Virus record (IMG/VR): IMGVR_UViG_3300012920_000266
Coordinates: 1 to 23,810 of that record
Source: a virus
DNA: 23,810 nt
Strand: one strand, 5' to 3'
Below the pieces are notes generated by a model. It ran no database searches, had not been told where the DNA came from, and worked only from the letters and a program-made list of their open reading frames with translations. Position 1 is the stretch's first letter. The number at the start of each line of letters is the position of its first letter. A program made the translations under genes and the position numbers. This document shows positions 993 through 3,559 of the stretch, in pieces.

Positions 993-1071
993 TGATGTGG
1001 CTGACATCATCAGTACCTACCGACCAAGGTAAGTAGAGGGGAGAAATGATTCCCCTTTCATTTTTACATCA
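993..1071 (-). ncRNA. Hammerhead-ribozyme-like element A (type II permutation)
   Basis: Read on the - strand from 1059 downward, the order is: GAA (1059-1057); a 6-bp helix AGGGGA/TCCCCT (1056-1051 with 1042-1037); a single C (1036, predicted cleavage after it); an 8-bp helix TACTTACC/GGTAGGTA with one G-U (1035-1028 with 1021-1014); then at once CTGATGA (1013-1007). These are the conserved hammerhead parts in type II order, with stem III and stem I closed by loops. Stem II is imperfect. The base pair expected right next to the core is missing (T1006 opposite T1060), and pairing resumes only distally as TGATGT/ACATCA (1071-1066 with 998-993). The element lies between the 34-residue peptide gene, whose stop codon it includes, and the DUF932-like gene. 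Cleavage would separate the two messages. The weak stem II keeps this provisional. Confidence 0.45.
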
Positions 1072-1168
1072 TTAAATAATCTATAGTCCATTTAAACCCA
1101 CCAAGAAAAAAGTAGGCAAATAATAAACCCATGATTACATATTCAAAAGCATCAAGAAATTTTTTCAT
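1064..1168 (-). CDS. 34-residue single-span membrane peptide
   Basis: ATG at 1168 reads MKKFLDAFEYVIMGLLFAYF and continues to a TAA at 1064-1066. GGAG lies about 9 bases upstream of the ATG, inside the end of the preceding gene, and only two bases separate the two genes. Residues 10-24 are hydrophobic and could cross the membrane once. A basic N-terminus suggests the N-terminus faces the cytoplasm. I recognise no family. Short membrane peptides in phage early regions are sometimes host-takeover or superinfection factors, but nothing here shows which. Its stop codon lies inside the hammerhead-like element A. Confidence 0.5.
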   Translation of the reverse strand: MKKFLDAFEYVIMGLLFAYFFLGGFKWTIDYLMM

Positions 1169-1726: not shown

Positions 1727-1789
1727 TAGTTTTCGTATTGATTATTTAGCTAACATCATCAGTATAACTTGCTAAAGGTTATAGAACTA
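1727..1789 (-). ncRNA. Hammerhead-ribozyme-like element B (type III permutation)
   Basis: On the - strand: TAGTT (1789-1785), a single C (1784, predicted cleavage after it), a 6-bp helix TATAAC/GTTATA (1783-1778 with 1768-1763, loop of 9), then directly CTGATGA (1762-1756), a 21-nt segment (1755-1735), GAA (1734-1732) and AACTA (1731-1727). AACTA pairs perfectly with TAGTT to give a 5-bp stem III. All hammerhead core positions are filled in type III order. The weak point is stem II: T1755 faces C1735, and only short pairing (G1754-C1735, T1753-A1736) is available. The block TACTGATGATGTTAGC matches element A at 15 of 16 bases. It sits in the leader of the gene at 1488-1715. Confidence 0.42.
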
Positions 1790-1810
1790 TATTTTTAACA
1801 AACTACATCG

Positions 1811-1950
1811 TAGGTCTTACCACACTTTGCGAGGTTCCCCTTGGATTAACGAACAACCTTGATATTGCCAGATCGGGTGTGGACGCCGATTTATCGAACA
1901 AGGATACGAGGTGCAAAACTTAGAATTACACGCCCAAGGCTCTGAATCAG
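1811..1950. ncRNA. G+C-richer, highly foldable non-coding block (unidentified RNA or DNA site)
   Basis: By count 66 of 140 bases are G or C, far above the flanking AT-rich DNA, and no convincing reading frame crosses it. A hairpin AGATCGG/CCGATTT (1870-1876 with 1886-1892) has a nine-base loop. Six loop bases, GTGTGG (1877-1882), complement CCACAC at 1820-1825, so a pseudoknot is possible. Outside the hairpin CCTTG/CAAGG pair (1857-1861 with 1899-1903), and CCTTGG/CCAAGG (1839-1844 with 1934-1939) can close the whole block. Competing helices also exist: CGAGG/CCTTG (1830-1834 with 1839-1843) and GGGTGTG/CACGCCC (1875-1881 with 1929-1935). The transcribed strand is unresolved. If it is -, the block is in the same leader as element B. 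I do not recognise an RNA family. Confidence 0.4.
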
Positions 1951-2160
1951 TTTTTATGAGTTTATAGAATAGTACCGATTAAACATTTTCTAATTAAATG
2001 AATATTGCCTAAAATATCAAATAAAGTAAATAATTAATACATCAGTAAAATAAGGGTTTTTTGGTTAAAAATTCCTAAAAAAGTAAATTTTTTAACAAGT
2101 TGATTTGCAATTAATACTATAAGTTCAAATCAATTGACTAAAAATAAAAAAAAGGTAATT
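1951..2160. other. AT-rich intergenic stretch upstream of the rightward genes
   Basis: This is a strongly AT-rich stretch with no supported gene. It contains the rightward promoter candidates near its right end. On the - strand, TATAAA lies at 1967-1962 but has no good -35 partner, so I do not call a leftward promoter. Low melting stability next to a structured block would also suit a replication origin, but I see no clear iterons. Confidence 0.4.
2092..2120 (+). promoter_or_regulatory. Candidate sigma70-type promoter for the rightward genes
   Basis: TTAACA (2092-2097) and TACTAT (2115-2120) are separated by 17 bases, five and four matches to the -35 and -10 consensus. Transcription would start near 2127 and give a short leader that includes the AAAGG site and ATG of the leader ORF at 2161. 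In DNA this AT-rich such matches arise by chance, so confidence is modest. Confidence 0.35.
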
Positions 2161-3119: not shown

Positions 3120-3192
3120 AAAAGAATGGGAAGAACATTGTAAATGGCTTGATACATTTAGAGGCAAAACTGTTACTAAAAAAGATGGCTGA
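3112..3192 (+). CDS. 26-residue ORF overlapping both neighbours
   Basis: ATG at 3112 follows AAAGGA (3098-3103) with eight bases of spacing. It reads MTKKEWEEHCKWLDTFRGKT plus six residues, and ends TGA at 3190-3192. It overlaps the previous stop by eight bases and the next gene's ATG (3185), filling the gap between two genes exactly. The Trp-rich charged peptide matches nothing I know. Context and ribosome site support it, its length does not. Confidence 0.42.
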   Translation: MTKKEWEEHCKWLDTFRGKTVTKKDG

Positions 3193-3559
3193 ATTAAATC
3201 ATATACATTTTGAAATTATAGATAGAAATAAACATAGATTTCATATGAAAAAAAAGGAAAAGGAAAGATTTGATAAATTAAAACAGATAGGTTGTATAGC
3301 TTGTCAAAAAAAAGGTTTATTTACTGAAGCAGTAATTCATCACATTAGAAAATTTACAGGCATTGGTTTACGACCTAGTCATGATCAAACTATTCCTTTG
3401 TGTCCTCAACATCATAATATGGGTAACGAATCAATACATTTAAATAAAACAAAATTTCAAGAACTGTTCGGTACAGAACTTGATCTATTAGAAGAAGTAA
3501 ATCAACAAATCAACCAACTAGAAACAGGAGATATATTTTATGGAAAAGGAAATAAATAA
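3185..3559 (+). CDS. Ref-like HNH nuclease (RecA-dependent nuclease family)
   Basis: ATG at 3185 gives 124 residues. A TTG at 3149 is in frame but has no ribosome site, and the added residues look unlike the family. The core has CIAC (C37, C40), then IHHIR (H52, H53), RPSH (H66), PLCPQHH (C73, H76, H77) and H85. The order C-x2-C, HH-x-R, G.R.SH, PLC..HH is that of the RecA-dependent nuclease / phage P1 Ref family (PF16786-like): a zinc-structured HNH nuclease that in P1 cuts DNA within RecA-formed displacement loops. It lies with replication-type genes, so a recombination or replication role is likely. A general HNH endonuclease is the alternative. Its 3' end overlaps the next gene by 20 bases. 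Confidence 0.75.
   Translation: MAELNHIHFEIIDRNKHRFHMKKKEKERFDKLKQIGCIACQKKGLFTEAVIHHIRKFTGIGLRPSHDQTIPLCPQHHNMGNESIHLNKTKFQELFGTELDLLEEVNQQINQLETGDIFYGKGNK

Follow-up and report, generated by a model that had tools for sequence, protein, structure and literature searches.

A probable type II hammerhead ribozyme with a pseudoknot in an early leftward pelagiphage transcript

The window analysed here is the whole 23,810-nucleotide stretch of viral DNA at positions 1 to 23,810 of the IMG/VR record IMGVR_UViG_3300012920_000266. On its minus strand, a hammerhead-like element lies between a 34-residue ORF and a DUF932 gene, and a second such element and a conserved structured RNA are found further upstream in the same leftward transcript (Table 1). 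On the plus strand the window carries a Cro/C1-type HTH gene (2256-2639), divergent from the ribozyme operon, and a gene of the RecA-dependent nuclease family (3149-3559). A tRNA/tmRNA search of the window found none.

Table 1. Coordinates of the features at the left end of the window.
Feature	Position	Strand	Basis or comment
DUF932 gene (Pfam PF06067)	3-971 (start codon 969-971)	-	downstream of ribozyme
Tail GCCA, second pseudoknot half	998-1001	-	own versus swapped tails across family
Stem II 5' strand GUC	1003-1005	-	family helix GNC/GNC covaries
Bulged U between CUGAUGA and stem II	1006	-	in 111/125 type II copies; absent in 14, where stem II begins directly after CUGANGA
CUGAUGA core	1007-1013	-	direct reading and motif scan
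Stem I 3' strand GGUAGGUA	1014-1021	-	covariation in 23-row alignment
Loop I UGGU, first pseudoknot half	1023-1026	-	own versus swapped tails across family
Stem I 5' strand UACUUACC	1028-1035	-	compensatory change in 6/8 pairs
C17, predicted cleavage 3' of base	1036	-	118 C, 5 A, 2 T (125 distinct type II copies)
Stem III 3' strand UCCCCU (U16.1 = 1037)	1037-1042	-	direct reading and motif scan
Stem III 5' strand AGGGGA (A15.1 = 1056)	1051-1056	-	direct reading and motif scan
GAA core strand (G12 A13 A14)	1057-1059	-	direct reading; invariant in 23 aligned copies
Stem II 3' strand AAU, decayed	1060-1062	-	GAC in relatives; comparison with relatives
AAAAATGAAA	1065-1056	-	window sequence spanning stem II 3' strand and GAA
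34-residue ORF	1064-1168	-	upstream; stop ends 4 nt before GAA
Second hammerhead, type III	1727-1789	-	motif scan; upstream of 75-residue gene
Type III stem III UAGUU/AACUA	1789-1785/1731-1727	-	
Type III C17	1784	-	
Type III stem I	1783-1778/1768-1763	-	
Type III pseudoknot UUUAGC/GCUAAA	1776-1771/1750-1745	-	
Type III core CUGAUGA; bulged U	1762-1756; 1755	-	
Type III stem II GU/AC	1754-1753/1736-1735	-	
Type III GAA	1734-1732	-	
Conserved structured RNA, ~180 nt	1803-1980	-	directly upstream of type III hammerhead; head of leftward transcript

The minus strand reads ...UGAUGUAAAAAU GAA AGGGGA AUCAUUUC UCCCCU C UACUUACC UUGGUC GGUAGGUA CUGAUGA U GUC AGCCACAUCA... through the first element. 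The initial annotation had placed GAA, stem III, C1036, stem I and CTGATGA in exact register, and all of these parts are indeed found at the minus-strand coordinates it gave, with a stem III of 6 bp and a stem I of 8 bp, both loop-closed and without extra bases at the core junctions. The hammerhead core C3 U4 G5 A6 N7 G8 A9 is present at 1013-1007 and G12 A13 A14 at 1059-1057, and the H17 that a hammerhead requires after A15.1-U16.1 is C1036. The A15.1-U16.1 pair (A1056-U1037) is invariant, being present in 23/23 aligned copies. Core position 7 is T, A or C in the type II family, the other six positions being fixed by the scan; the scanner also excludes G at position 17, so that its absence there is no test. 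With a probability of about 0.88, we take the core and its flanking helices to be a true type II hammerhead with a pseudoknot, carried by an early leftward pelagiphage transcript. What places it in this class is the core together with the three helices and covariation.

The Rfam covariance search that had been suggested as a check did return a match, with RF02276 Hammerhead_II aligning at full length at 995-1061 (24.4 bits, E 0.029 in the region scan; E 1.2e-4 in a single-record search). This score falls below the gathering cut-off of 37 bits, which is a curation threshold and not a structural definition of the ribozyme; orthologs before the same DUF932 gene in loci L004, L005, L019 and L026 pass it, at 37.8-47.2 bits. 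Hammerhead_II gave no match in 14 control genomes, and the 96-nt element had two BLAST matches only among phage records, both at E 0.9. Support for the proposed type II hammerhead between two leftward genes comes from the Rfam family, from these same-place orthologs, and from stems I and II and the pseudoknot, all three of which show compensatory changes. Homologous phages give covariance matches and conserve the core, the opposite of what had been named as evidence against the proposal.

Via the DUF932 gene, 34 related loci were fetched. Where the region upstream of DUF932 is retained, most loci have a hammerhead before the gene, mostly of type II, with a type III element there instead in L010, L012, L016, L017 and L031. 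The final set from pattern scans, after removal of three chance-like elements, comprised 125 distinct type II and 30 distinct type III copies. Two unusual elements were also seen. At L018:3465-3552 lies a chimeric hammerhead, with a front half like the type II and a back half like the type III of the same contig, as if the halves had been joined by recombination in the core. At L135:5121-5205, stem I, loop and tail are as in type III, but uacGAA stands on the 5' side, which is the type II order; judged by its sequence, this element is a natural permutation, in another gene context.

The initial annotation overlooked a pseudoknot between loop I and the tail, in which U1026 G1025 G1024 U1023 pair with A998 C999 C1000 G1001. 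Contact between loop I and the stem II side takes the form of a pseudoknot in many, but not all, type II hammerheads. In the window it is short, UGGU/GCCA providing 4 pairs including one G.U. A register-restricted search across 91 distinct loop/tail combinations gave a pseudoknot score of at least 12 for 41% of own tails against 8% of swapped tails; an unrestricted search was too noisy to tell own from swapped tails. The distal TGATGT/ACATCA helix, previously read as a resumption of stem II, is present in the sequence but lacks covariation support: 58.7% of its cells are paired, no more than in shuffles, and we rejected it as a part of stem II. A looser family-wide search for a distal helix gave a small excess only. 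Counting against the ribozyme fold, unconstrained folding of the window RNA pairs CUGAU with GUCAG in a hairpin.

In stem II the window copy departs from its family. Where relatives carry AGACGAAA the window has AAAAUGAAA. Of a stem II that should open with a pair adjoining the core (10.1-11.1), this leaves G1005.U1060 and U1004-A1061 after the bulged U1006, followed by a C1003 x A1062 mismatch. In 120 of the 125 distinct type II copies stem II has at least 3 pairs, most commonly GGC/GCC, GUC/GAC, GAC/GUC or GCC/GGC, and its middle pair occurs as A-U, C-G and G-C in the 23-row alignment; the AAU strand of the window is the only one among the 125, and a sequence error in a single contig is a possible source of it. 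T1006 and T1060 had been described as facing each other where the core-proximal pair was absent. The bases are as described, and the better reading of U1006 is a bulge, common to most of the family, beside a G.U pair. The suggestion of a novel open stem II does not hold. The orthologs have a closed 3-bp stem II, and because relatives keep AGACGAAA where the window has AAAAUGAAA the opening is a local decay; stems II of one or two pairs, and stems that start with a U10.1-U11.1 mismatch, are already published among hammerheads (Perreault et al. 2011, PMC3088659), and the architecture is therefore no novelty either.

This divergence bears on activity. A credible alternative, though not the one we favour, is that the family is active and the window copy no longer cuts at a useful rate, so that the 34-residue ORF and DUF932 share one message; this concerns the activity of the window copy only, not its identity as a hammerhead. 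The window has diverged from the relatives' AAGACGAAA to AAAAAUGAAA, three base differences (1 insertion, 2 substitutions) in and beside stem II, and its 24.4 bits compare poorly with the orthologs. Against such a loss of function, neither the core nor stems I and III nor the UGGU/GCCA pseudoknot is damaged, and a rate of >1.2 per min is published for the cleavage of a pseudoknotted metagenomic type II hammerhead whose stem II has 1 bp (PMC3088659). Having lost part of its stem II, the window copy probably works more slowly than its orthologs; its pseudoknot and undamaged core may preserve activity.

The gene context is shared by the family. In the window, 35 nt separate CUGAUGA from the DUF932 start codon, and across the set (n = 155) 86% of elements have an ORF start with a Shine-Dalgarno-like stretch no more than 60 nt downstream, compared with 18% of random places. 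This nearly fixed distance before a start codon would also fit an element acting mainly as structured ends or a leader, its hairpins lending stability to message ends or holding the ribosome site and cleavage being secondary, and stems III and I would indeed form hairpins at the new 3' and 5' ends. We consider this improbable, as stability alone leaves the conserved unpaired CUGANGA and GAA, and the invariant A15.1-U16.1, unexplained.

The full motif (GAAA, stem III of at least 5 bp, U16.1, H17, stem I of at least 5 bp, CUGANGA) was scanned for in the window, and exactly 2 elements were found, both on the minus strand: the type II copy, and the type III copy with its core at 1762-1756. In 400 simulated windows of the same dinucleotide make-up the chance rate was 0.02 per window, and a type II element as long as the window copy arose once in all 400. 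The true core gave 230 matches in 1.32 Mb of loci; 12 permuted cores gave 0 or 1 each in the same 1.32 Mb, except one with 9 in partly redundant loci. In the 23-row alignment, 41 cells were changed on both sides versus 10.8 in shuffles, and 90.6% of cells were paired versus at most 55% with slid partners. A chance resemblance, or a DNA operator as hinted at by the near-palindromic CTGATGATGTCAG and by CTGA...TCAG or TTAG half-sites in both window copies, is very improbable given that chance rate, and is refuted in the main by covariation between strands ~50 nt apart, relatives swapping GTC for GCC or GGC together with the distant partner strand as an operator would not need to do.

The type III element lies 750 nt upstream of the type II copy. 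No Rfam model reports any match to it, even at E 5. It resembles the type III hammerheads of clan CL00010 in its type III order, core, H17 and pseudoknot, and differs from them in its 5-bp stem III, its 2-bp stem II and the lack of an Rfam report at that threshold. Among type III relatives 98.2% of cells pair. Compensatory changes in stem I give UAUAAC/GUUAUA, UGCAAC/GUUGCA, UACAAC/GUUGUA and UGUAAC/GUUACA, the pseudoknot shows one compensatory change (UUUAGC/GCUAAA to UUAAGC/GCUUAA), and stem III grows on both sides together (AACUA/UAGUU, AAACUA/UAGUUU). The Pelagibacter phage HTVC112P carries the type III element, without an Rfam type II match. In L019:3487-3562 and similar type III elements, stem III could be long enough to cover the Shine-Dalgarno stretch of the gene that follows, in which case cutting might make that stretch accessible for translation.

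The RNA at 1803-1980 is conserved: HTVC112P has it, and 27 distinct forms of it occur across the loci. Compensatory changes affect 11 of its 25 predicted pairs, one pair having such a change in 16/26 sequences. It has no Rfam match at E 5, and two loose collection patterns gave mostly chance among the matches listed. A CUGANGA core follows within 150 nt in 27/27 forms, which is not an unbiased count as many loci were fetched through hammerheads or their neighbour. Divergent forms with a different 3' part occur upstream of the hammerheads of L100 and L032. We tentatively suggest that in this phage group a hammerhead regularly follows this RNA and by cutting sets its 3' end, which would release a free non-coding RNA. 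It could be a processed RNA of the phage or a cis-acting leader.

From the sequence, its conservation and covariation, and the gene context, we infer transcription, cleavage and an effect on expression as follows. The RNA would cut itself after C1036. The upstream product would then carry a 2',3'-cyclic phosphate at the end of its stem III hairpin, and the DUF932 message would start at the stem I hairpin, with a 5'-OH some 65 nt ahead of the AUG. Together, the type II and type III cuts would split the message three ways, into the conserved RNA at its head, a middle piece with three genes (75, 103 and 34 residues) and the DUF932 message. The leftward early message would in this way cut itself between genes, as proposed for prophage operons, and clustered hammerheads of such operons cleave in vitro, one cluster also in E. 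coli (PMC3088659). L018 has the order hammerhead, 64-residue gene, hammerhead, 111-residue gene, hammerhead, DUF932, and L006 resembles it with a further hammerhead after DUF932, so that in both a hammerhead stands before nearly every gene of this stretch. The most likely role would be to divide the early leftward RNA into gene-sized pieces. As for what the phage would gain, the obvious candidates are that message ends are protected and that single genes come under separate control. The ORF preceding type II copies typically ends 4 nt before GAA, where a terminating ribosome would cover the core, and cleavage may for this reason depend on translation of the preceding gene.

The first element shares with RF02276 Hammerhead_II (Perreault et al. 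2011, PMC3088659) the core, the permutation with an open-ended and short stem II, the loop I/tail pseudoknot and the clustering between genes of phage operons. It differs in its host phages, which are of the Pelagibacter HTVC112P group, and in the two weak stem II pairs and the score below the Rfam cut-off of the window copy. The ribozyme class is known; in the literature searched, of which coverage is incomplete, we found no paper on hammerheads in pelagiphages, and the occurrence in this group, for which no earlier report was found, is a new example. Few ribozyme-partitioned phage operons are known, and a marine phage group that infects Pelagibacter and has hammerheads in front of one gene after another now joins them; the paired conserved RNA at 1803-1980 is a concrete candidate cleavage product. 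Since HTVC112P, a relative that carries the type III element, is on record with a named host strain, the role of phage hammerheads is testable in infected cells.
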